Source: Acetobacteraceae bacterium
GTDB taxonomy: Bacteria > Pseudomonadota > Alphaproteobacteria > Acetobacterales > Acetobacteraceae
Length of the DNA: 40,968 nucleotides
Assembly: GCA_025352995.1 (NCBI GenBank)
Contig: JANXRN010000405.1
Location: forward strand, 1-40,968
Reading direction: 5' to 3'
The notes below the pieces were generated by a model that did no database searches, was not told the DNA's origin, and saw nothing but the letters and a program-made list of their open reading frames with translations. Position 1 is the stretch's first letter; every line of letters begins with the position of its first letter. Below are positions 4,508-32,147 of the stretch, one piece after another. Made by a program: the position numbers and the translations under genes.

Positions 4508-7500
4508 TTGCCCGTTCAGTTCAGCCGCATCCGGATCGCCGGGTTCAAATCCTTCGCCGAACCCGCGGTGGTCGAAATCCTGCCCGGCCTGACCGGCATT
4601 GTCGGCCCCAATGGCTGTGGCAAGTCGAACGTGGTTGAGGCACTGCGCTGGGCGATGGGCGAAACCTCTGCGAAATCGCTGCGCGGCGGCGAAATGGATG
4701 ATGTGATCTTCGCCGGCACCTCGGCCCGCGCCGCCCGCAACATCGCCGAAGTGACGTTGAAACTCGATGACACCAATGGCACGGCGCCGGCGCCGTTCCA
4801 CGAAGCGTCGGAGCTTGAAATCAGCCGCCGCATCGAACGCGGCAATGGCTCGGTCTACCGCATCAACGGGCGCGAAACTCGCGCGCGCGACGTGCAGACC
4901 TTATTTAACGATCTGGCCACCGGCGCGCATTCGTCCGGCCTGGTGAGCCAGGGGCGGGTCGGCGCCCTGGTCAACGCCAAGCCCGATGAACGACGGCAAT
5001 TGCTGGAAGAAGCCGCCGGCATCACCGGCCTGCACGCCCGCCGCCACGAAGCCGAACTCAAACTGCGCGCCGCCGAAGCCAACCTCGAACGCGCCGAGGA
5101 TTTGCGCGGTCAGCTCGATGTGCAGCTCGAAAGCCTCAAGCGCCAGGCGCGCCAGGCCAATCGCTACCGGGCGATTTCCGGGCTGGTGCGGGCGGCGGAC
5201 GCCGAACTGATGTCGTTGCAGCGCGCCCGGGCGGAGGCATTGCGCGTCGCCGCCGCGACCGCCCTGCACGCGGCCCAGGCTGCGATCAGCGACTTCACCA
5301 TCCGCGCCACCGGAACCGCCACCGAAGCGACCGAGGCCGCCGCCGCCCTGCCCGCCTTGCGCGAAGCCGAAGGTGAGGCCCGCACGGCGCTCGAGCGCCA
5401 CCGCATCGCCGGCGAAGCCCTTGCCGCCGAAGAAGCCCGCGCCCGCGCGGCACTGGACTCTATCGAGGCCCGGCTGCGACAGTTGCGTGCCGATCTGGCC
5501 CATGCCGAGCAGTTATTGCGCGAAGCCGACGGCGCCAATGCGCGGCTGGGCGAAGAAGATGCCGGACTTGCCGCCGAACAGGACGCGCAACCGGCGCGGC
5601 TTAGTGCCGCCGAAACCGCCATGATCGAGACCGCCGAAGCCGCGACCGACGCCGATGCGCACGCCAATCGCGCCACCGAACACGCCGCCGACATCACCGC
5701 CCGTCATCGCGCGCTAACCGAAGCGCTCGGTCAGGCGGAAACCCGCGCCCGTCGGCTGGCCGAACAGCTTTCCCGCATCGAAGCCGATCAGCAAACTGTT
5801 GCCGCACGGCTGGTCGCGCCAGCCGCGCTGGCGGCTTGCCTCGCTGCCCGTGACGATGCCGAAGCGGCGGTTGCCGCCGCCCAGGCGACCCTCGCCGAGA
5901 CGGAAAAATCACGCCAGATCATCGTGCAAACCGCCAACGCGACCCGTGCGGCTGCCCTCGATGCCGCCGCGATCGCCCGCAAAGCGGCGATCGAGGACGC
6001 TGCCGGCTTGCGCCGCACCGCCACCGAGGCCGCTGCCGCCCAACGCGCCGAAGCCCGCCAGTCGCTCACCATCGCGCGCGACGCGTTTGCCACCGCTGAA
6101 CAGGCCCGCGTCAAACTGGCAGCCGAAACCTCAGCGCTGGCCGAAGTGCTGGCGGTCAAAGATGGCGAGCGCTGGCCGCCTTTGGTCGATCAGATCACCG
6201 TGCCGGCTGGGCTGGAGGCCGCGTTGGCGGTGGCGCTCGCCGAGGGGCTCGATTCGGCGATTGATTCGGACGCTGCCCGATTCTGGCACGCTTTGCCTGC
6301 CTTCGCCCCTGCCCCTGCCTTGCCCGCCGGCGCCGAACCCCTGCTCGCGCTGGTGCAGGCCCCAGCCGCGCTGGCCCGTGCCTTGTCGCAAATCGGCTTG
6401 GTCGAAGACGGCAGCGCAGCGCAGGCAAGCCTCGCCCCTGGACAAATACTGGTCAGCCGCGCCGGCGGGCTATGGCGCTGGGATGGCTACACGGTCCGGT
6501 CGGGCACGCCATCGGAAGCCGCCATTCGCCTGCAACAGCGCAACCGCCTCGCCGGATTGCGCGTCCGGCTGGCCGAAGCAACCGGGCTTGCCACCGCCGC
6601 GCAAGCCGCGCGCGTCGCCGCTGAACAGTCCAGCATTCTGGCGCTCGCCACCGCCGACCGTGCCGAACGTGTCGCCGCCGCTGCGGCCGATGCCCAGGAT
6701 CGCGCCGCCCGCAGCACCGCCGAAGCCGCCGAAAATCATGCCCGTGCCAACGCCGAAGCCCAGGAACGCGCGGCGACGGCGGCCGAACAAGCCGCGCGGC
6801 TCACCCGCCGCGGCGCCGAACTTACCCAGGACGCCGCCCGCAGTGCCGCCAACCGGATGTCCACCCAGGCCGCCGAGGCCAGTGCGCGAATGGATGCGCT
6901 GACAGCCCAGGCCGCCGAAATCACCCAATCACGCCAGGAAGCCGATGCGGTGCTGGCCACCGCCCGTGCCGCGATGGCCGATCTACCCGATCCGGCCGCC
7001 GCGCGCGCTGCCTTGGACCAGGCGCGGGCGGCACTAACCACCGCACGTGCGGCCGAAGCCACCGCGCGCGCCGAACGCGACGGCATGGCCCGCCGCATCG
7101 ACAGCACGGCCCAGCGCCGCGCCGCCATTGCCCGCGAGCGCGCCGACTGGCAGCAGCGCGCCGCCGACGCACGCGGGCGGGTCGCCGATCTGTCCCGCCG
7201 CAACGATGACGCCGCCGCCGAATTGCTCGCCGTGCAAGCCGCCCCCGCCGAAATCGCCGCCCGACGCGCCGCCGCGATTGACGCGCTGGATGCCGCCGAA
7301 GCCACCCATCGCCAGGCCGCCGATACGGTCAGCGCCGCCGACGCACGGGCGCTTGCCGCCGATCGTGCCACCCGCGCCGCCGAGGCCGCCCTCGTCCAGG
7401 CCCGCGAAGCCGCCATCCGCGCCGAAGCCGAAGCCCGCGCCGCCAACGCCGCCTGGGGCGTGGTTGCCGAACGCATTCTGGAAAAGCTCGGCGCCACCCC

Positions 7501-8233
7501 GGACCTCCCCGAACCGCCCGCCGATTGCGGCACCGACGCCGAAGACAAAGCCCGCCGCAAGCTCGAACGCCTGACCCGCGAGCGGGAAGAAATGGGCCCG
7601 GTCAATTTGCGCGCCGAGGTCGAAGCCGACGAAATCGCTGCCCAGATCGCCAATATTGTTAGCGAAACTGCCGAACTGAATTCGGCCATCGCCAAGCTGC
7701 GCGGCTCAATCGGGCATCTCAACCGCGAAGGCCGCGAACGCCTGTCGGCCAGTTTCGCGGCCATCGATGCACATTTCCAGACCTTGTTCGCCCGCATGTT
7801 CGGCGGCGGTCGCGCCCATCTGGCACTCGTCGGGTCGGACGATCCGCTGCAAGCGGGCCTCGAAATCTACGCCCAGCCACCGGGCAAGAAACTCGCAACC
7901 CTGTCGCTGCTGTCGGGCGGCGAACAGGCGCTGACCGCGCTGTCGCTGATCTTCGCCGTCTTCCGCTGCAACCCGGCGCCAGTCTGCGTGCTGGACGAGG
8001 TCGATGCGCCGCTTGATGACGCCAACGTCGATCGCTTCTGCACCCTGCTCGAAGACATGGTGCGCGAAACCACCACCCGTTTCCTGGTGGTCACCCATCA
8101 TCCGATGACGATGGCGCGGATGGATCGGCTTTATGGGGTAACGATGCAGGAGCGCGGGATTTCGCGGTTGCTGTCGGTTGACCTTGCCGCAGCAACCGAC
8201 ATGGTTGAGCCGCCTCGGATGGCAGCCGAGTAA
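4508..8233 (+). CDS. smc: Chromosome segregation protein SMC
   Basis: A 1241-residue condensin ATPase that compacts and segregates the chromosome with ScpA/ScpB (neither is in the window). Walker A is GPNGCGKS (33-40). The ABC signature LSLLSGGEQ is at about 1132-1140 and Walker B VCVLDEVDAP begins at about 1159. The hinge lies at about residues 556-666 and interrupts two long coiled-coil arms (about 170-550 and 670-1060). The arms are unusually rich in Ala, Arg and Glu, with long A-A-x-x-A-E-A runs. The start is TTG at 4508, with AGGA about 10 nt upstream; no ATG fits before the conserved FSRIRIAGFKSFAEP. Many long antisense reading frames over this gene are composition artefacts. A palindromic repeat lies 12 bp after the stop. 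Confidence 0.97.
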   Translation: MPVQFSRIRIAGFKSFAEPAVVEILPGLTGIVGPNGCGKSNVVEALRWAMGETSAKSLRGGEMDDVIFAGTSARAARNIAEVTLKLDDTNGTAPAPFHEASELEISRRIERGNGSVYRINGRETRARDVQTLFNDLATGAHSSGLVSQGRVGALVNAKPDERRQLLEEAAGITGLHARRHEAELKLRAAEANLERAEDLRGQLDVQLESLKRQARQANRYRAISGLVRAADAELMSLQRARAEALRVAAATALHAAQAAISDFTIRATGTATEATEAAAALPALREAEGEARTALERHRIAGEALAAEEARARAALDSIEARLRQLRADLAHAEQLLREADGANARLGEEDAGLAAEQDAQPARLSAAETAMIETAEAATDADAHANRATEHAADITARHRALTEALGQAETRARRLAEQLSRIEADQQTVAARLVAPAALAACLAARDDAEAAVAAAQATLAETEKSRQIIVQTANATRAAALDAAAIARKAAIEDAAGLRRTATEAAAAQRAEARQSLTIARDAFATAEQARVKLAAETSALAEVLAVKDGERWPPLVDQITVPAGLEAALAVALAEGLDSAIDSDAARFWHALPAFAPAPALPAGAEPLLALVQAPAALARALSQIGLVEDGSAAQASLAPGQILVSRAGGLWRWDGYTVRSGTPSEAAIRLQQRNRLAGLRVRLAEATGLATAAQAARVAAEQSSILALATADRAERVAAAAADAQDRAARSTAEAAENHARANAEAQERAATAAEQAARLTRRGAELTQDAARSAANRMSTQAAEASARMDALTAQAAEITQSRQEADAVLATARAAMADLPDPAAARAALDQARAALTTARAAEATARAERDGMARRIDSTAQRRAAIARERADWQQRAADARGRVADLSRRNDDAAAELLAVQAAPAEIAARRAAAIDALDAAEATHRQAADTVSAADARALAADRATRAAEAALVQAREAAIRAEAEARAANAAWGVVAERILEKLGATPDLPEPPADCGTDAEDKARRKLERLTREREEMGPVNLRAEVEADEIAAQIANIVSETAELNSAIAKLRGSIGHLNREGRERLSASFAAIDAHFQTLFARMFGGGRAHLALVGSDDPLQAGLEIYAQPPGKKLATLSLLSGGEQALTALSLIFAVFRCNPAPVCVLDEVDAPLDDANVDRFCTLLEDMVRETTTRFLVVTHHPMTMARMDRLYGVTMQERGISRLLSVDLAAATDMVEPPRMAAE

Positions 8234-8245
8234 GGCGAGGAAGGT

Positions 8246-8269
8246 CTTCTTTTCTTGGAAGAAAAGAAG
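8246..8269 (+). repeat. Palindromic intergenic repeat, copy 1 (after smc)
   Basis: Arms CTTCTTTTCTT and AAGAAAAGAAG (perfect 11 bp) around GG, then CAAAAGAACTTCC. The A-tract side points away from smc. The core starts 12 bp after the smc stop and ends 31 bp before the MFS start. Compared with other copies, the inner pair TT/AA replaces GT/AC on both arms. Member of a nine-copy family in this window. Confidence 0.85.
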
Positions 8270-8300
8270 CAAAAGAACTTCCGACTTAAGGGAACGCCCA

Positions 8301-14437: not shown

Positions 14438-15442
14438 ATGTCCGCCATCCGCCACCGCCTTGTGCTCTGCCGCGCGCTCCACCCGACCGCGATGGAAATG
14501 ATCGCCGGCCGCCGCGATATCGATCTGCGGGTGCTGACCGATCAGTTTCGCGGCCCGCCATTGCAGGCCGAGCTCACCGAAGCCATGAAAACCGCCGACG
14601 GCGTTATGATCGGGCTGGAGAAAATCACCGATGCCATGCTCGCCGGCGCGCCCGATCTGCGGGTGATCAGCCGTTTCGGCGTCGGGTTCGATAATCTCGA
14701 CATCCCGGCCTGCACCCAACGCCGAGTTCTGGTCGGTGTGGTCAACGGCGCCAACGATTTGTCGGTCGCCGAGCACGCCATGATGCTGATGCTGACGACG
14801 GCGCGGCGCACCCTTGAAATGGATGCCAGCGTGCGCGCCGGCACCTGGATGGTGCAGTCCGGCCGTCGCATGCATGAACTCGCCGGCCGCCGCGTGCTCG
14901 TCGTCGGATATGGCCGCATCGGCACCCGCGTCGCCCGGCTCTGCGCCGCCTTCGGCATGGACGTCGCCGTGCACGACCCGAATTTCCCCACCCCCCGCAT
15001 CGCCGCCGATGGCCATATCCCGGCGCCTGATCTGATGGCAGCCGTCGCCGAAGCCGATATCGTCACCCTCCACTGCCCGCTCGAAGCCGCCACACGCGGC
15101 ATGGTCAACACCGCCTTCCTTGCCGCGATGCAACCCCACGCCTGGTTGATCAACACCGCCCGCGGCGGCCTGGTCGATGAAGCCGCCCTCGCCCACGCGC
15201 TCTCCAACGGTATCATCGAGGCCGCCGGCGTCGACGTGCTGGTCACCGAACCGCCTAATCCGGAAAACCCGCTGTTCAAGCTGCCCAATGTCGTGCTCAG
15301 CCCCCACAACGCCGCCGCGCCGCTTGAATGCTACGCCAAAATGTCGCGCCGGGCGGTGAGCAATTTGCTCGATTACTTTGATGGGGTGATCGATCCTGGC
15401 TATACGGTTAATCCTGAGGTGCTCGGGCGGAACCAAGGGTAA
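14438..15442 (+). CDS. D-2-hydroxyacid dehydrogenase (NAD(P)-dependent)
   Basis: A 334-residue enzyme of the family that includes phosphoglycerate and glyoxylate/hydroxypyruvate dehydrogenases; it interconverts 2-oxoacids and D-2-hydroxyacids. The Rossmann fingerprint is GYGRIG (157-162) with Asp180 ending the second strand, which favours NAD. The catalytic set is Arg242 (NTARGGLVDE), Glu271 (TEPP) and His290 (LSPHNAA). It lacks the ACT domain of long SerA proteins. ATG 14438 follows CGGGGA. It is divergent from leuA. Because a glycerate kinase lies elsewhere in the window, hydroxypyruvate/glyoxylate reduction is possible but unproven. Confidence 0.93.
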   Translation: MSAIRHRLVLCRALHPTAMEMIAGRRDIDLRVLTDQFRGPPLQAELTEAMKTADGVMIGLEKITDAMLAGAPDLRVISRFGVGFDNLDIPACTQRRVLVGVVNGANDLSVAEHAMMLMLTTARRTLEMDASVRAGTWMVQSGRRMHELAGRRVLVVGYGRIGTRVARLCAAFGMDVAVHDPNFPTPRIAADGHIPAPDLMAAVAEADIVTLHCPLEAATRGMVNTAFLAAMQPHAWLINTARGGLVDEAALAHALSNGIIEAAGVDVLVTEPPNPENPLFKLPNVVLSPHNAAAPLECYAKMSRRAVSNLLDYFDGVIDPGYTVNPEVLGRNQG

Positions 15443-15448
15443 GGTATT

Positions 15449-15472
15449 CTTCTTTTTATGAACAAAAAGAAG
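15449..15472 (+). repeat. Palindromic intergenic repeat, copy 2 (after the dehydrogenase)
   Basis: Arms CTTCTTTTT and AAAAAGAAG around ATGAAC, then CAAAAAAACTT. The core starts 6 bp after the dehydrogenase stop. Its outer flank, read on the other strand, includes GCCAACGGCAAGG, related to flanks of other copies. It is in inverted orientation to copy 3, and the two enclose the 172-residue hypothetical gene. Confidence 0.85.
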
Positions 15473-15567
15473 CAAAAAAACTTCATCCGTTCCTTGCCGT
15501 TGGCGCACCTACTCTCGCAATTAATTTTGATATCGTAACAAAATAAGCGTGCCTATCCTATGTCGCC

Positions 15568-16086
15568 CTATAGCCATTCTAAGCGTCCGGTGGGGCCGAC
15601 CACCATCTGCGCGCCCCGACCGGCCTCGACCCAGGCCGGCGGCGGCCAAGCCACGTCGCGCTTCACCTTCGCCACCGTCTTCCCAGGCGGCACAAACAGC
15701 ATCCTCTCCAGCGCCGCCACGATCTTCCGCGCCTGCGGGACCTCGGCCAGAAACCGCGCACACTCCTCCTGACTGACCATCAACTGCCAATCACCAATCT
15801 TCTGATGAACATCCGGCATCCGCGCGACCAGCCAACCATGGCCGGTGGGAAAGCTGATCTTGGGATTGCGCACCCGATCCGGGGTGTTCCCGGCTTGCGA
15901 CGGGCGCGCCCGTGGCACAGGCAGCGTCCCAGCCCGCCACTGCGTCAGCAGTCTTTCCAAGCGCCGCCCCATGGCGCCCACCCGGTTCCACAGCATCCGG
16001 ATGAACTCCGGCTTGCGTTGGTCGCGCCGACCCAGCACGCCAATGGCGGCTTGCAGCAGCGTGAAGAAGCAGGTGAACGAAACCAT
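15568..16086 (-). CDS. Hypothetical protein inside an inverted repeat pair
   Basis: A 172-residue protein that I do not recognise as a named family. It begins with a short hydrophobic stretch (SFTCFFTLLQAAIGVLG), then a basic helix-rich region, a Pro/Arg segment (PVPRARPSQAG), a compact middle (PTGHGWLVARMPDVHQKIGDWQ) and a Trp/Pro-rich end. I have a vague impression of similar lineage-restricted proteins in Acetobacteraceae. ATG 16086 has AGGG 7-8 nt upstream. It is antisense to both neighbours and lies between two inverted copies of the palindromic repeat, so it may be the cargo of a small mobile unit. No transposase motif is visible. Confidence 0.65.
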   Translation of the reverse strand: MVSFTCFFTLLQAAIGVLGRRDQRKPEFIRMLWNRVGAMGRRLERLLTQWRAGTLPVPRARPSQAGNTPDRVRNPKISFPTGHGWLVARMPDVHQKIGDWQLMVSQEECARFLAEVPQARKIVAALERMLFVPPGKTVAKVKRDVAWPPPAWVEAGRGAQMVVGPTGRLEWL

Positions 16087-16184
16087 ATCGCAACCCTACA
16101 AGTTCATGATATGTTCCGTCAAGCCTATTCTCTCCAATTTCCCAACCCAACGGGCAGGGAGTAACGTCAGAGAAAGTTTTTTTG

Positions 16185-16208
16185 GTTCTTTTTGTTCACA
16201 AAAAGAAC
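16185..16208 (-). repeat. Palindromic intergenic repeat, copy 3 (before the decarboxylase)
   Basis: Perfect arms GTTCTTTTTGT and ACAAAAAGAAC around TC, preceded by AAAGTTTTTTTG. The outer flank CAGGGAGTAACGTC (16155-16168) recurs in the flank of copy 7. The core ends 22 bp before the decarboxylase start. Inverted relative to copy 2. Confidence 0.88.
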
Positions 16209-16230
16209 AATCTTTCTCAAAGGACCCAAA

Positions 16231-17478
16231 ATGCGCACCAGTCTTCCATCCACCGGTAGAAGTCCCGAAGCCCTCCTCACCGAAATGCGCGCGATGAAAT
16301 CGGGCGATGCCGACTGGCAAGGCGGCAAGGTGCCGCTTTACGTCTTCAAGGCCGAGGACAGCGTGACCGAAATCGGCAAGGCTGCATTCTTCGAGTATTT
16401 TTCCGAGAACGCACTCGGCGCCGGGCGGGCATTTCCATCCGTCAAGCGCCTGGAGGATGAGGTTGTCGGCATGGCGCTCGGCCTGTTCAACGCGCCGGAC
16501 GGGGCACGCGGCTTCATGTCCACCGGCGGCACCGAAAGCATTGTGCTGGCGGTGCAGGCGTGCCGGGACTGGTCGCGCAAGCACCGTAAGGACCCCACCC
16601 ATCGCGGAAATATCGTGGCGTCGGAGACCGTGCATCCCGCGTTCAACAAGGGCGCCAAGCTGATGGACCTTGATGTGCGGCGGGCGCCGGTCGGGGCCGA
16701 TCTGCGGATGGATCTGGCAGCGATTGAGGCGCTGATTGATGAAAACACCATCATGCTGGTCGGCTCGGCGCCGAATTTTCCTTATGGGATGATCGACCCG
16801 ATTGCCGCCCTGGGGGACATCGCGACGCGGCGTGGGGTGTGGCTGCATGTCGATGCCTGTGTCGGTGGCTACCTGGCGCCGTTTGTGCGGATGATCGGGC
16901 GGCCCGTGCCGGATTTCGATTTCGTGGTGCCGGCGGTGAGTTCCCTGTCGGCCGATTTGCACAAGTTCGGCTTCTGTCCGAAGCCGGCATCGACGGTGTT
17001 TTATCGCGATGCTGACAAAGCCCAGCACCATATGTTTGATGCAGATGTGTGGCCGAACGGGCGGTTTGTGACATCCACCATTGTCGGCACGCGGCCGGCC
17101 GGCGGGGCCGCCGGGGCGTGGGCGGTGCTGAACCATCTCGGGGTCGAAGGGTTCAAGCGGATTGCGACGAATTTGATGGGCTTCATCGATGCCTACCAGG
17201 ACGGCATTCGCGCAACGCCGGGCCTGCATATTATCGGTGCGCCCGATTTGTCCATTGTGGCGTATGGATCGAACGAATTTGATATTTTCCGGGTCGCCGA
17301 GGTGATGAGCGCCAAGGGCTGGCTGCCCGGCCTGGTGCAGCGGCCGCGCGGCATCCACCGGATGATGTCGATGTTTCATGCGCCGGTGCTGGACCAGTAT
17401 CTGGATGACATGCGGGCCGCGATCGGGGTGGTGCGGCAGGAAGCGCCGACCGAGGCCAAAATAAAGGCGAACTACTAA
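16231..17478 (+). CDS. PLP-dependent group II decarboxylase / lyase
   Basis: A 415-residue fold-type I PLP enzyme related to glutamate/tyrosine decarboxylases and, more closely by motif, sphingosine-1-phosphate lyase. Lys245 in SADLHKFGFCPK should bind PLP. Asp208 (LHVDACVGGY) contacts the pyridine nitrogen, and STGGTES (97-103) contacts the phosphate. ATG 16231 follows AAAGGA, just beyond a palindromic repeat; a longer frame starting inside the repeat is rejected. The stop overlaps the next start (TAATG), so it is translationally coupled to the M81 gene. The substrate is unknown: an amino acid released by the neighbouring hydrolases is plausible. Confidence 0.9.
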   Translation: MRTSLPSTGRSPEALLTEMRAMKSGDADWQGGKVPLYVFKAEDSVTEIGKAAFFEYFSENALGAGRAFPSVKRLEDEVVGMALGLFNAPDGARGFMSTGGTESIVLAVQACRDWSRKHRKDPTHRGNIVASETVHPAFNKGAKLMDLDVRRAPVGADLRMDLAAIEALIDENTIMLVGSAPNFPYGMIDPIAALGDIATRRGVWLHVDACVGGYLAPFVRMIGRPVPDFDFVVPAVSSLSADLHKFGFCPKPASTVFYRDADKAQHHMFDADVWPNGRFVTSTIVGTRPAGGAAGAWAVLNHLGVEGFKRIATNLMGFIDAYQDGIRATPGLHIIGAPDLSIVAYGSNEFDIFRVAEVMSAKGWLPGLVQRPRGIHRMMSMFHAPVLDQYLDDMRAAIGVVRQEAPTEAKIKANY

Positions 17479-22102: not shown

Positions 22103-22130
22103 TTGCTATCGGCGGCAACATGCTTATGTT
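22103..22130 (+). promoter_or_regulatory. Predicted dnaE2 promoter
   Basis: TTGCTA (22103-22108) and TATGTT (22125-22130) are separated by 16 bp. The -10 hexamer overlaps the SOS box, so bound LexA would block it. Assigned by eye from consensus and position. Confidence 0.45.
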
Positions 22131-22142
22131 CGCTTTTTGTTC
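22128..22142 (+). promoter_or_regulatory. LexA (SOS) box of dnaE2
   Basis: A perfect GTTC-N7-GTTC (22128-22131 and 22139-22142), the alphaproteobacterial LexA operator. It lies 17 bp before the dnaE2 ATG and overlaps the predicted -10 element. Damage-induced LexA cleavage should therefore switch on dnaE2. Confidence 0.85.
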
Positions 22143-22159
22143 ACGGACAATACCCCAAA

Positions 22160-25100
22160 ATGATCCCGGCCTATGCCGAACTCCAGGCCGCCTCGCATTT
22201 CTCCTTCCTGCGCGGCGCATCGAGTTGCGATGAGCTGTTTGCCGAAGCGGCAGCCCTTGGCCTGCACGCGCTGGCGATCACCGACCGTGCGTCGCTCGCG
22301 GGCAGCGTGCGGGCGCATGTCGCCGCAGAGGCCGCTGGCATTCGTGCCATTATCGGGTGCCGGCTTGATCTGCTGTGCGGGGCGGTTCTACTGGTCTATC
22401 CGACCGATCGGGCCAGCTACGCGCGCTTGTGCCGGCTGCTGTCGCTGGGAAAATCGCGTGCCGGCAAGGGCGCGTGCAAATTGGCTTGGGACGATTTGGC
22501 GGACTACAGCGCCGGATTATGGGCGATTCTGGTGCCGGATGATGCGTGTGCCAGCAACTTGCAGCGCGTGCGCAGTATTTTCGGCGACCGCGCATCCCTG
22601 GCTTTGACGCTCGCCCGCCGCCCGGGCGACGCAATACGGTTGCATGATTTGGCAAATCTGGCAGCCCAGGCGCGGGTGGCCGTGGTCGCCACTAACGACG
22701 TGCTGTTCCATGCCCCCGACCGCCGCATCTTGCAGGATGTGGTGACCTGCATCCGCGAAGGCTGCACCATCGATGCGGTGGGGTTTCGCCGCGAACGCAA
22801 CGCCGATCGGCATCTGAAAGCGCCGGCGGAAATGGCGCGGCTGTTCGCGCGCTGGCCGGACGCGGTCGCACGCTCGGTCGAAATCGCCGATCGCTGCCGG
22901 TTTTCACTGTCGGAGTTGCGCTACCAATATCCCAATGAAGTTGCAGCCCCTGGCGTTACCCCGATCGCGGAACTCACCCGTCGCACCTGGCTGGGTGCCG
23001 CCTGGCGCTATCCGGGCGGCGTTCCCGACAAGGTCACTGCGGCCTTGCGGCATGAGCTGACCTTGATCGACCGCCTCGACTACGCGCCTTACTTCCTCAC
23101 CGTGGACGCCATTGTTCGTTTCGCCCGCAGCCAGGATATTTTATGCCAGGGCCGCGGCTCGGCGGCTAATTCGGCGGTGTGTTATGTGCTTGGCATCACC
23201 TCGATCGACCCGGAACGCCATGATCTGCTGTTCGAGCGCTTCGTGTCGCAGGAACGCCGCGAACCGCCGGATATCGATGTCGATTTCGAGCATGAACGGC
23301 GCGAGGACGTCATCCAGTGGATTTATAAAACCTACGGACGGAACCGGGCCGCGTTGTGCGCGACGGTCATTCGCTATCGCGGGCGGGCGGCGATCCGCGA
23401 TGTCGGCAAGGCGATGGGGCTGACCGAAGATGTGATCAGCGTCCTGGCCAAGCAGATCCGGCATTGGGACGAGGAAGGGGTGCATGAAAGCCATGCCGCC
23501 GAGCTTAACCTCAACCTTGACGACCCGCGTTTGCGGCTGACGCTCGATCTGGCGCGGCAATTGATGGGCACCCCGCGGCATTTGTCGCAGCATCCGGGCG
23601 GGTTCGTGCTGACCCAGGATCGGCTCGACGAGCTGGTGCCGATCGAGCCGGCGGCGATGAAAGATCGCGCCATTATCGAGTGGGACAAAGACGATATCGA
23701 CGTGGTAAAATTCATGAAAGTCGACGTGCTGGGCCTGGGCATGCTGGGCTGCATGCGGCGGGCGTTCGATCTGCTGGCCGAGCACAAGGGCATGAAGCTC
23801 AACCTCGCCACCATCCCGGCCGAAGACAAGACGACCTACAAGATGATCCAGAAGGCCGACACGGTGGGTGTGTTCCAGATTGAATCCCGCGCCCAGATGG
23901 CGATGCTGCCGCGGCTGAAGCCGGCCTGCTTTTACGATCTGGTGATCGAGGTCGCAATCGTGCGGCCCGGCCCGATCCAGGGCGATATGGTGCATCCCTA
24001 TTTACGCCGGCGCGAGGGCAAGGAAAAAGTAGAATTTCCCAGCGCCGAGCTGAAGGACGTGCTCGGCAAAACGCTCGGCGTGCCGCTGTTTCAGGAGCAG
24101 GCGATGCGGGTGGCGATCGCGTGCGCCGGCTTCACCCCAACCGAAGCCGATCAATTGCGTCGGTCCATGGCAACTTTCAAAATGACCGGTGGGGTAAGCC
24201 ATTTTCGACAAAAGATGGTGGGCGGCATGGTGGCGCGCGGCTATAGCGAGGCCTTCGCCGTGCGCACCTTCACCCAGATTGAAGGCTTCGGGTCTTACGG
24301 CTTCCCGGAAAGCCACGCGGCGTCCTTTGCCTTGATCGTCTATGCCAGTTGCTGGATGAAATGCTGGCATCCGGACGTTTTCCTCGCCGCCATCCTCAAT
24401 GCCCAGCCGATGGGGTTTTACGCGCCGGCGCAGTTGGTGATCGACGCGCGGGCGCATGGGGTGGAGGTGCGGCCGATTGATGTGAATGCCTCGCGCTGGG
24501 ATTGCAGTTTGGAGCCGCGTGGCGCGGGCCATGCGGTGCGGCTGGGCTTTCGTCTGGTGAACGGCCTGGCCAATCTTGATGGCGCGGACATCATCGAAGC
24601 GCGGGCCGATACAGGTTTCACCAGCATTGACGATCTATGGCACCGCGCCGGGGTGAAGCGCGCGGCGTTGGAGCATCTTGCTAATGCCGATGCGTTTGCC
24701 GGCCTGGGCCTGTCGCGACGCGACGCGATCTGGGCGATCCGGGTGCTGGAAGACCAGGACCTGCCTTTGTTCGCGCCGCAGATCGAACCCGAAACCAGGC
24801 TGCGCCCAATGGGGCCAGGGCGGGAAGTGACCGAAGACTACGCCGCGATCGGCTTCAGCCTGCGTGCCCATCCGGTGAGCTTCATCCGCACTGACCTTGC
24901 CAGTCAGAAAATCGCCCCTTGCAGCCAAGCCGCGCTCGCCCGCGACGGCGCCCGGCTAACCATTGCCGGCATAGTGCTGATGCGCCAGCGGCCGGGTTCG
25001 GCGCGGGGGGTGCTGTTCATCACCATCGAAGACGAAACCGGCATCGCCAATCTGGTTGTCTGGCCGGACCTGTTCGACCGTCAACGGCGGCTGATCCTGG

Positions 25101-25258
25101 CAAGTTCAATGATCGCCGTGCGCGGCCGGGTGCAGCGCGAGGGCGAGGTGGTGCATGTCGTGGCGCAGGAATTTTTCGACCTGACCGACCTGTTGCATAG
25201 CGTGGGCGATCGGGGGGACGGGCCGGCGATCAAGCCGGTCAGCCGGAATTTTCATTAA
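22160..25258 (+). CDS. dnaE2: Error-prone DNA polymerase DnaE2
   Basis: A 1032-residue C-family polymerase used in damage-induced mutagenesis. The PHP domain opens at once ([17 protein letters not shown], then [14 protein letters not shown]). Catalytic aspartates are Asp373 and Asp375 ([12 protein letters not shown]) and Asp522 (KVDVLGLG). Helix-hairpin-helix and OB domains follow, the latter at about residues 930-1020 ([16 protein letters not shown] to FFDLTDLL). The short PHP-first layout without an extended C-terminus separates it from replicative DnaE. ATG 22160 starts just after the SOS box; a frame reaching back to 22103 would place that operator inside the gene and is rejected. The usual imuA and imuB partners are not adjacent here. 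Confidence 0.95.
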
Positions 25259-25934: not shown

Positions 25935-26037
25935 GGGACGGTCCTTTTGACTGACCGGCCCAGCTTTCGCCCAGAACCATTAACAAATCGTGGCTTCTCT
26001 TTGGCCCCAACGCAGGAAGATTACAGCGAAGAAAGCA

Positions 26038-26059
26038 CTCCTTTTTTAAAAAAAAGGAG
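26038..26059 (-). repeat. Palindromic intergenic repeat, copy 4
   Basis: Arms CTCCTTTTTT and AAAAAAGGAG around AA, then CAAAAAAACTTTTCC. The CTCC/GGAG ends replace GTTC/GAAC of other copies on both arms, which keeps pairing. It lies 103 bp upstream of the methyltransferase start, inverted relative to copy 5 with 88 bp between cores. Confidence 0.8.
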
Positions 26060-26147
26060 CAAAAAAACTTTTCCACTTTGGTTCCGAGCGCTTCGCTGTT
26101 TCGCGGGGAGGCACGCCAACGGCCAGAATGGATAAAAAGTTTTTTTG

Positions 26148-26171
26148 GTTCTTTTTGTTCACAAAAAGAAC
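26148..26171 (-). repeat. Palindromic intergenic repeat, copy 5 (after pyk)
   Basis: Core identical to copies 3 and 8: arms GTTCTTTTTGT and ACAAAAAGAAC around TC. The outer flank has GCCAACGGCCAG (26115-26126), also found beside copy 7. The core ends 6 bp from the pyruvate kinase stop. Confidence 0.88.
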
Positions 26172-26177
26172 TGCTTG

Positions 26178-27611
26178 CTACTTCACCCGCGCCACCCGCA
26201 GCGCGTTCGTCGTCCCCGCCTGGCCAAACGGCACCCCGGCAATCACGATGATTTCCTGTCCGCTGCTCGCAAACCCCTCCGTGCGGGCAATGCGGGTGGC
26301 GGTATTGACCGTTTCGGTCATCGATCCCACCTCCCCCACCGTCACCGCATGTGCGCCCCAGACCACGGCAAGGCGCCGTGCGGTGGTGATCGAAGGGGTT
26401 AATCCCAGAATTGGCGCTTCCGGCCGTTCGCGGGCCGCCCGCAAGGCGGTGCTGCCCGACGCAGTGAAGGCGCAAATGGCCGACGCCGAAATCGTGTGCG
26501 CCACCTGCCGCGCGGCGGCGGCGATGGCATCGGCCGCACTCGCTTCCGGGGCCGCGCGCGATGCCTCAATCATCGCGCGCCAGCCATCATCCTGTTCCAC
26601 CCGGGCGATGATCCGGTCCATGATGTTGACCGCTTCATACGGATATTGCCCGGCCGCGGTTTCACCCGACAGCATCACCGCATCCGCGCCATCGAAGACC
26701 GCGGTGGCCACGTCGGACGCTTCCGCCCGGGTTGGTGCCGGCGCGCTGATCATGCTTTCCAGCATTTGCGTCGCCACCACCACCGGCAGCCCACGGGCGC
26801 GGGCAGCGCGGACGATGCGCTTTTGCGCCAGCGGCACTTCTTCCGGCGGCAATTCCACCCCGAGATCGCCACGCGCCACCATCACCGCGTCTGACAGCGC
26901 CAGGATCGCATCGAGATTATCCAGCGCCTGCGGCTTTTCGATCTTGGTCATCACCCAGGCGCGCCCGGCAACAATGTCCCGCGCTTCGGCCACGTCTTCC
27001 GGGCGCTGCACGAATGACAGGCCGATGAAATCGACCCCGTGATCAAGCGCGAAGGCGAGATCCTCACGGTCCTTCACCGTCAGCGCCGGAATCGGCAGCA
27101 CCATGTCGGGCACATTCACGCCCTTGCGGTCCGACAGCGGGCCACCGACCAACACTTCGGTCAGCAGATGATCGTCGCGCACCCGCGTCACCCGCAGCCG
27201 CAGCTTTCCGTCATCGAGCAGCAAATTGGTGCCGATCGCCGCTGCCGCGATGATCTCCCGGTGCGGCAGTTCGACCCGGGTGACATCGCCGGGCGTCGGG
27301 TTGAGGTCGAGCCGAAAGGTCGCCCCGGTTTGCAACGATATGCGCCCGCCGCCAAAGCGGCCCACCCGCAATTTCGGCCCCTGCACGTCAGCCAGGATGC
27401 CGATCGGGCGGGCAAATTTCTTCTCCAGATCGCGGATCATCGCAATCCGCGCGGCATGATCGTCATGGCTGCCATGGGAGAAATTGAGCCGGAACACATC
27501 CGCCCCGGCCTGGAACAGCCGCGCCAACACCTCTGGCGTTGAACTTGACGGGCCGAGCGTGGCGATAATTTTGGTGCGCCGGCGCCGGCGCAGCTTGGGA
27601 CGAAGGGTCAT
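26178..27611 (-). CDS. pyk: Pyruvate kinase
   Basis: A 477-residue enzyme that converts phosphoenolpyruvate and ADP to pyruvate and ATP. Visible hallmarks are TKIIATLGPSS (13-23), RLNFSHG, the magnesium/phosphoryl site VMTKIEKPQALDN (about 217-229), ARGDLGVELP and MLSGETAAGQYP. The C-terminal regulatory domain runs from about residue 350. Its ATG overlaps the stop of the glycerate kinase gene (ATGA), so the two are made together: the kinase yields a phosphoglycerate, enolase (elsewhere) would give phosphoenolpyruvate, and this enzyme gives pyruvate. A similar pair (ttuD-ttuE) occurs in tartrate utilisation of Agrobacterium. Confidence 0.96.
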   Translation of the reverse strand: MTLRPKLRRRRRTKIIATLGPSSSTPEVLARLFQAGADVFRLNFSHGSHDDHAARIAMIRDLEKKFARPIGILADVQGPKLRVGRFGGGRISLQTGATFRLDLNPTPGDVTRVELPHREIIAAAAIGTNLLLDDGKLRLRVTRVRDDHLLTEVLVGGPLSDRKGVNVPDMVLPIPALTVKDREDLAFALDHGVDFIGLSFVQRPEDVAEARDIVAGRAWVMTKIEKPQALDNLDAILALSDAVMVARGDLGVELPPEEVPLAQKRIVRAARARGLPVVVATQMLESMISAPAPTRAEASDVATAVFDGADAVMLSGETAAGQYPYEAVNIMDRIIARVEQDDGWRAMIEASRAAPEASAADAIAAAARQVAHTISASAICAFTASGSTALRAARERPEAPILGLTPSITTARRLAVVWGAHAVTVGEVGSMTETVNTATRIARTEGFASSGQEIIVIAGVPFGQAGTTNALRVARVK

Positions 27612-29645: not shown

Positions 29646-29665
29646 CTGCGACATAAGGCTTTTCT

Positions 29666-29690
29666 GGTCTTTTTGGTCCTAAAAAGAACC
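29666..29690 (-). repeat. Palindromic intergenic repeat, copy 6 (degenerate)
   Basis: Arms GGTCTTTTT and AAAAAGAACC around GGTCCT, with one unpaired base. The preceding CTTTTCT replaces the usual T-tract. It lies between gapR and dusB, with the family's gene-facing side towards dusB. The most decayed copy in the window. Confidence 0.65.
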
Positions 29691-29763
29691 GGCTTCCTCG
29701 CCGAATTCGGGTGTGACAACGCGATTGCGCATCCGAGTGACATCCCCTAATTATGCTCAAATC

Positions 29764-31964: not shown

Positions 31965-31979
31965 GAGGGGAGGGAAGTT

Positions 31980-32003
31980 CTTCTTTTTGTGAACAAAAAG
32001 AAG
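31980..32003 (+). repeat. Palindromic intergenic repeat, copy 7 (after ntrB)
   Basis: Perfect arms CTTCTTTTTGT and ACAAAAAGAAG around GA, then CAAAAAAAACTTTCC. Its outer flank (32017-32039), read on the other strand, contains GCCAACGGCCAGGGAGTAAC, shared in part with copies 3 and 5. It begins 15 bp after ntrB and is inverted relative to copy 8. Confidence 0.88.
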
Positions 32004-32096
32004 CAAAAAAAACTTTCCGACGTTACTCCCTGGCCGTTGGCTTGGGTCCTACCGCCGTCCCTCGGCAACCGTACAAAGTAAGAAAAAGTTTTTTTG

Positions 32097-32120
32097 GTTC
32101 TTTTTGTTCACAAAAAGAAC
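32097..32120 (-). repeat. Palindromic intergenic repeat, copy 8 (before ntrC)
   Basis: Core identical to copies 3 and 5, with AAAAAGTTTTTTTG before it. It ends 27 bp upstream of the ntrC ATG. With copy 7 it forms an inverted pair with 93 bp between cores, filling the ntrB-ntrC gap. Confidence 0.88.
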
Positions 32121-32147
32121 TGCTTCCTTCCTTCAACCAGGCACAAA

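Follow-up and report, generated by a model that had tools for sequence, protein, structure and literature searches.

The 172-residue gene that we describe here probably rides in a composite cassette of the mobile-insertion-cassette type, in which REP- or MITE-like repeats enclosed a gene that was already dispersed; we put the probability of this reading at about 0.58. An older unit, made up of a probably leaderless promoter, the gene and a 3′ palindrome, would first have become dispersed in many Acetobacteraceae. In the lineage of the present genome, two facing AT-rich hairpin repeats resembling REPs or MITEs would then have enclosed that unit, and the enclosed form would have multiplied with the repeats as its ends, much as mobile insertion cassettes do. 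What we observe is a repeat–gene–repeat structure of near-constant spacing, a single clade that holds every copy in the tree with an upstream arm within 150 nt, presence and absence of the element at orthologous sites, and purifying selection on the gene.

A gene between facing repeat arms

The window, meaning the whole stretch of 40,968 nucleotides that was analysed, is contig C48 of a 4.53-Mb draft genome in 558 contigs (G000); four relatives, sister species of this one (G001–G004), were used in the site comparisons. An earlier note, made from the sequence of the window, had described two facing repeats around a complete 172-residue gene on the opposite strand, two gene-less pairs elsewhere and a protein without a visible transposase motif. 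The enclosed gene and both gene-less pairs are indeed present (Table 1), and no transposase profile matched the protein. The gene is antisense to both neighbours, which are ordinary metabolic genes on the plus strand, and none of its four nearest genes looks like a known transposase, the lack of a profile match not being proof. Each arm is a hairpin, TTCTTTTTG...CAAAAAGAA, with an A-tract adjoining it on the inner side, and the arms are AT-rich and REP/MITE-like; the two around the gene stand 690 nt apart and show 92% complementarity over 38 nt. As the −10 box lies so close to the start codon, the transcript of the window copy is probably leaderless. No Rfam family matched in the window. Elsewhere in it, positions 22103–25258 hold a DNA polymerase III alpha (DnaE-type) gene, and 4508–8233 a long open frame of 1241 aa with degenerate internal GC-rich repeats (families D1, D5 and D7).

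Table 1. Features of the gene, its arms and the related repeats in the window
Feature	Position	Strand	Basis
Left neighbour, D-isomer 2-hydroxyacid dehydrogenase	14438..15442	+	
3′-side repeat arm, hairpin and A-tract; R-arm in gene orientation	15446..15483	+	arm comparison
18-bp palindrome, consensus TGTTACGATATCGTAACA, 4 mismatches in the window copy; begins 27 nt past the stop	15523..15540	-	
172-aa gene, uncharacterised multicopy Acetobacteraceae family	15568..16086	-	ORF listing, family searches
Sigma70-like promoter TTGACG-N18-TAGGGT; -10 box 6 nt before the ATG	16093..16122	-	direct sequence reading
Inner (subterminal) part of the 5′ arm; common to the empty pair at 32005-32046	16141..16182	+	
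5′-side repeat arm; L-arm in gene orientation	16174..16211	+	arm comparison
Right neighbour, pyridoxal-dependent decarboxylase	16231..17478	+	
Single degenerate arm	8244..8280	+	
Empty inverted pair, ~168 bp; facing arms at about 26034-26179	26011..26178	+	
Single degenerate arm	29652..29697	+	
Empty inverted pair, MITE/REPIN-like; arms 85% complementary over 48 nt	31969..32131	+	

The repeats exceed chance. With up to three mismatches allowed, the forward hairpin core is matched 512 times in G000 and the reversed control pattern not at all; the relatives carry 112 (G001), 142 (G002), 87 (G003) and 142 (G004) forward matches, again with none for the reversed pattern. We counted facing pairs of neighbouring arms in 343 kb of G000, in stretches selected for carrying family copies and with an arm pattern that misses the left arm of the 26-kb pair. 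The spacing of the 22 pairs is bimodal: 14 are gene-less, with arms 47–71 nt apart, and the other 8, with arms 690–722 nt apart, hold a family gene in every case (8/8), no other sizes being seen. A ninth gene-bearing composite was found outside this set, at L278. The empty pairs would be the gene-less form of the same repeat.

Folded as single-stranded DNA, the segment 31960–32140 around the 32.0-kb empty pair gave z = −7.9, which none of 200 shuffles equalled; single hairpins of the repeat gave z of about −3. The 26-kb pair has a left arm of a different hairpin type (CTCC); most of its 168 bp recur in many places in G000, the long matches among those listed being about 88–95% identical. Its left and right flanks lie on different contigs in G001, G003 and G004, and the match to the right flank in G001 and G003 begins directly after the element end. 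A second short repeat, of the GGTGCAGTTCCAAGCGGAACTGCACCCTACGG and GGCGGATGGCGCAAGTGCTTATCCGCCCTACG types, adjoins family copies L050, L053, L055 and L058–L060, and another inverted repeat, TAGTGGTGCGATCCTAACGC...GACGGTTTTTTCCGTCAGATTC, seems to replace the arm upstream in L032 and downstream in L046. We found no literature on such repeats or on this gene family in Acetobacteraceae among open-access papers, which does not imply absence in print.

A dispersed and selected gene family

The 172-residue gene is real: a search of G000 with its protein gave 41 matches at E ≤ 1e-3, and the family genes are kept by purifying selection, with dN/dS of 0.21 to 0.56 in ten copy pairs taken as corresponding sites and a median of 0.31 over 136 paralogue pairs. 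The 46 family loci of G000 comprise 33 fetched copies, 12 open reading frames at palindrome sites and the composite at L278; the 12 come from 15 further palindrome sites in G000, of which two others are next to contig ends and one has no gene. Several of the 46 are contig-end fragments, and as two of these are 5′ parts (L190 and L194), up to two loci may be halves of others. We consider some 45 selected copies of one small gene unusual for a 4.5-Mb bacterial genome.

Matches to the window protein occurred in 11 of 60 genomes searched, G000 included, and a 27-row profile matched 51 of 200 Acetobacteraceae genomes in 30 of 102 genera; eight of the 51 have a single match, at E 4.5e-5 to 8e-4, that could be a chance hit, and without them 43 remain. 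A draw of 385 genomes across the class yielded only G000 and one weak hit (E 5e-4, with a stop). Bar that hit, the family appears confined to Acetobacteraceae in the genomes searched. Across the 200 genomes the gene occurs in 51, the exact repeat pattern, which misses diverged repeats, in 31, and both in 22; the gene and repeat surveys, of 200 genomes each, were taken as the same set, their handles agreeing. Among Acetobacteraceae genomes with at least 10 repeat matches (both strands), 17 of 18 carry the gene family, an association inflated by shared ancestry. Gene and repeat are separable, each occurring without the other: several genomes, among them G022, G118, G119 and G177, have at least 18 gene matches and none to the exact repeat pattern, and G109, with 47 matches to the repeat, has none to the gene.

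The protein is basic, with a pI of 11.4 (family median 11.7). Helices are predicted at residues 4–21, 26–52, 85–89, 91–105, 107–115, 117–130 and 151–156, with two short strands near the end, and the structure model (mean pLDDT 83, pTM 0.65) is mostly helical. Nine residues are invariant in a 64-row alignment: R35, L46, P80, W85, A114, P117, A119, L126 and L130. None of them is an Asp, Glu, His or Tyr. No known transposase profile was matched in searches with five family proteins or, against Pfam, with 65 members. No Pfam profile was matched by more than one of the 65, and weak hits to seven families, by one member each (best E 0.029), were taken as chance, as were an NCBIfam hit at E 0.18, far below the family cut-off, and a PHROGs hit at E 0.081 by one member. 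There was no significant match in NCBIfam for the window protein or in PHROGs for five proteins, and no PADLOC match for five family members. A profile search of PDB sequences gave nothing significant (two matches, E 0.37 and 0.57), plasmid records had no match to the window protein, and phage records none to the L093 protein. Foldseek returned no PDB or viral match at E ≤ 0.001 for the predicted structure. A second structure comparison gave Z scores of up to 6.1 with ferritin-like and cobalamin-adenosyltransferase bundles; between helical models, such scores may reflect no more than a common helix arrangement. The protein is probably a nucleic-acid binder that is carried as a passenger. That it binds or acts at its own 3′ palindrome is a guess prompted by the strict linkage of gene and palindrome.

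The ordinary unit consists of a promoter with TTGAC about 35 nt before the ATG, the gene, and the 18-bp palindrome about 26 nt past the stop. TTGAC starts at −34 to −36 from the start codon in 57 of 76 copies, which would place the transcript start at or next to the ATG and make the transcript probably leaderless; its position alone is a clearer promoter signal than a strict promoter pattern, which only 38 of 88 copies match (32 of 1,760 shuffles). Of 93 copies, 83 have a palindrome within five mismatches of TGTTACGATATCGTAACA in the 120 nt that follow the stop, compared with 13 of 1,860 shuffled sequences. In 1.16 Mb there are 62 palindrome sites with up to three mismatches; 61 of them adjoin a family gene, and the one remaining is also 3′ of a copy (L203). 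DNA folding at the palindrome gave z of 0.08, so it resembles a dyad binding site more than a folded structure. Related promoters and 3′ motifs were seen by eye in many of 22 loci, mostly from other genera.

The arms are distributed less evenly. An R-arm follows 26 of 30 copies in G000, 9 of 22 in G004, 5 of 17 in G001, 5 of 13 in G003 and 1 of 3 in G002; an L-arm precedes 11 of 31 copies in G000 and 1 of 19 in G004, and none in G001 (0/17), G003 (0/12) or G002 (0/3). Some arms were also registered in reversed orientation (in G000, downstream of 7 of 30 copies), partly since the two strands of the hairpin read alike. A tree of 88 proteins contains a 19-row clade with support of 100/100, 18 of its rows from G000 and one from G001, and all 10 rows with an L-arm within 150 nt fall inside it (0 of 69 outside); R-arms occur in 16 rows inside this armed clade and 16 outside. 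Proteins shorter than 140 or longer than 260 residues were left out of the tree, among them the contig-end fragment L190, which has an L-arm, and a G004 copy in L204 with its L-arm 263 nt upstream enters the flank count and lies beyond the 150 nt used for the tree. The L-arm requires six changes on the tree, fewer than in any of 500 shuffles over all rows (minimum 7) and equalled in 21 of 500 shuffles within the G000 rows; six changes imply frequent losses or independent gains within the clade. The repeat-enclosed form belongs to this one clade, with repeated loss or gain inside it.

Units of the armed clade extend further and may take in the repeat arms, the L-arm standing 84–97 nt and the R-arm mostly 82–93 nt from the gene. 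We measured how far homology reaches beyond the gene in within-genome pairs whose alignment covers the whole gene. For 69 paralogue pairs of the armed clade the medians are 46 nt upstream and 128 nt downstream, values set by the many copies without an L-arm, and the maxima of 142 nt and 152 nt take in both arms; for 40 pairs outside the clade, two of which are one copy held twice, the medians are 13 nt and 46.5 nt. The near-constant arm distance and the homology across the arms indicate that in the armed clade the arms travelled with the gene. Its copies have already diverged (median dS about 0.96; highest protein identity to the window copy within the clade, 77%), which suggests that the spread was not very recent.

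Corresponding sites in related genomes

The cassette on G000:C201 (L173 9571–10331) stands between two convergent genes and is absent at the same junction in three relatives, where the flanks are 18 bp (G001 and G003) or 36 bp (G004) apart. In G001, 4 bp separate the ends of two open frames here, of 264 and 336 codons, and the right-hand gene in G000 also has 336 codons. Because G002 is rearranged there, the direction of the change, insertion or loss, is not fixed by this site; an insertion in G000 is the likelier event, if not proved. The empty pair at 31969–32131 is likewise absent from the same intergenic space in G001–G004, which measures 55 to 77 bp. At another site, an empty pair in G000 (L180) corresponds to the gene with one intact arm in G004 (L144); the flanks align at 83–87%. 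Eight blocks of near-constant size, one of them absent in three relatives, and a site that holds the gene in one species and an empty pair in another support the suggestion of a possible cassette in the earlier note, in that the repeat–gene–repeat block behaves as one.

Other sites show further states. G001 has an armless unit (L122) where G004 has 71 bp between the flanking genes; at this site in G000 another family member adjoins the same right-hand gene, with the left flank on another contig. Where G000 has the cassette on C453, G001 holds 943 bp of other sequence rather than an empty site, including a frame that by eye resembles a dienelactone hydrolase. Closely related copies occupy corresponding positions in L100/L104 (94% protein identity), L102/L105 and L093/L097. 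What the earlier note named as refuting its reading does hold for the wider family: in sister species, homologues with neither arm occupy conserved syntenic positions (L100/L104 and L129/L130/L133). Strongly different members also stand at corresponding sites with well-aligned flanks: L193 (G000:C402) against L137/L206 (G004:C46), with 57% identity between L193 and L137, and L131 against L132, with 64% protein identity. L107 is closer in protein sequence to its own paralogue L106 (90% identity) than to its positional counterpart L109 (80%), a pattern suggestive of replacement or gene conversion. Beside one family copy, a 7.3-kb stretch is inverted between G004 (L094) and G001 (L096). Sister species that hold present, absent and exchanged states at corresponding sites make the origin of a cassette from a short repeat and a dispersed gene directly open to study.

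Synteny does not hold across the window's own site in the relatives. G001, G003 and G004 have the dehydrogenase (A) and the decarboxylase (B) on separate contigs, and only A is listed for G002. Another G000 copy, on C538 (L174 1558–2070), stands between genes C and D, and in G001, G003 and G004 A adjoins C and B adjoins D, the genes in between varying. This order fits, and may reflect, one inversion between the window copy and L174, which are inverted copies, or else a wrong join in the draft. From 16173 onward the window aligns with G001 and G003 upstream of the decarboxylase, and in both an arm stands beside that gene without the family gene, so the arm was probably there before the cassette. 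The second short repeat, of the GGTGCAGTTCCAAGCGGAACTGCACCCTACGG/GGCGGATGGCGCAAGTGCTTATCCGCCCTACG type, also occurs at L066 2448–2539, the A|C junction of one relative.

Proposed origin of the cassette and known systems

A transposase or recombinase supplied in trans would move the cassette, and the protein, a probable nucleic-acid-binding passenger, may act at its own 3′ palindrome. The common arms would allow cassette and empty pair to replace each other by recombination and could serve as inversion endpoints. No target-site duplication is visible at any of the eight composites; the longest word common to their 60-nt outer flanks is at most 6 nt, and none is positioned like a duplication. 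A search for Y1_Tnp found no match in G003, G004 or G000, the last of these 97.99% complete, which leaves room for a gap, and one match each in G001 and G002, at or just over the cut-off. With no Y1_Tnp match in G000, we set a RAYT aside as the mover.

One alternative would be that the promoter–gene–palindrome unit spreads alone and that the arms are its passengers, REP-like repeats favouring gene ends. The family is multicopy in several genera with related promoters and 3′ motifs by eye, homology outside the armed clade mostly stops just beyond promoter and palindrome, the palindrome adjoins the gene at 61 of 62 sites with the last one also 3′ of a copy, and G001 has an armless unit at a junction that in G004 is 71 bp without it. 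Even so, we think this rather unlikely, as the arms of the armed clade lie at near-constant distance and inside the homology, which indicates that they travelled with the gene, and the protein has no similarity to recombinases. An extension of the idea, which we regard as unlikely, is a self-spreading unit: a leaderless gene whose small, basic, helical protein would recognise its own 3′ palindrome and direct its own copying or insertion without known transposase chemistry, the unit being captured in one lineage by REP-like repeats and so acquiring a second mode of spreading. If the protein does act on its own palindrome, it would define a new kind of dispersed gene unit. Another reading, raised by the earlier note, is an autonomous element in which the 172-residue protein would itself move the arms as a transposase or recombinase, with the empty pairs as its non-autonomous derivatives. 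A family gene in all eight wide pairs and in 17 of 18 repeat-rich genomes, together with a very basic protein (family median pI 11.7), would suit it, but this we find very doubtful: no transposase profile matched, no Asp, Glu, His or Tyr is invariant in the 64-row alignment, gene and repeat occur apart among the 200 genomes (the gene multicopy without the exact repeat in G022, G118, G119 and G177, among others, 47 repeats without the gene in G109), and about 45 diverged, selected copies exceed what a mobile family would need.

Transposition might also be dispensed with altogether, if ordinary duplication and homologous recombination between hundreds of repeats, themselves bidirectional hairpins at gene ends, had distributed the copies. 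The A–copy–B and C–copy–D orders of G000 against A–C and B–D in G001, G003 and G004 fit such exchange, as do the different members at corresponding sites (L193/L137, 57%; L131/L132, 64%) and the closeness of L107 to L106. What makes it distinctly unlikely is that the C201 cassette splits genes only 4 bp apart in G001, where there is no arm, and that four relatives lack any repeat at the site of the 32.0-kb empty pair. Lastly, a draft in 558 contigs, with several copies at contig ends and breaks in synteny at the window copy and the 26-kb pair, invites the suspicion of wrong joins at repeats. An artefact of assembly is highly improbable, as eight composites of the same structure lie on different contigs, the genes flanking the C201 cassette and the 32.0-kb pair are collinear with the relatives on both sides, and the coding sequences are under purifying selection. 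We return to a composite cassette, built from a repeat and a gene that was already dispersed, as the preferred reading.

Several known classes of element share parts of this structure. MITEs are short non-coding repeats with inverted ends, and the repeat of about 168 bp described here is likewise non-coding with inverted ends, the long matches listed for it in G000 being about 88–95% identical; it differs in that no parental insertion sequence was identified and no target duplication established. REPINs and the REP sequences with RAYTs, as portrayed in PMC3116915, are also short extragenic palindromes that form inverted doublets and long single-stranded hairpins and number hundreds per genome. 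Here, by contrast, the arms are AT-rich, no RAYT-type (Y1_Tnp) gene was found in G000, and some pairs enclose a gene unlike any transposase. REP palindromes carry a constant GTAG or CGTC tag at one end, according to PMC3733652, whereas no constant tag of either kind was present in 15 elements read by eye here, CGTC adjoining the hairpin in one (L185).

The nearest parallel to our preferred reading is offered by mobile insertion cassettes such as MIC231A1 of Bacillus cereus and mic-qnrD, for which target-site duplication is usual according to PMC3913671. Our elements depart from that account in showing no target-site duplication and in having as their ends REP-like hairpin repeats that occur in hundreds of copies, with no matching transposase identified. 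They share with the cassettes of that account a passenger gene between inverted repeats and the lack of a transposase gene in or near the element, and they differ from them in bringing this arrangement to many dispersed chromosomal copies of one gene family.
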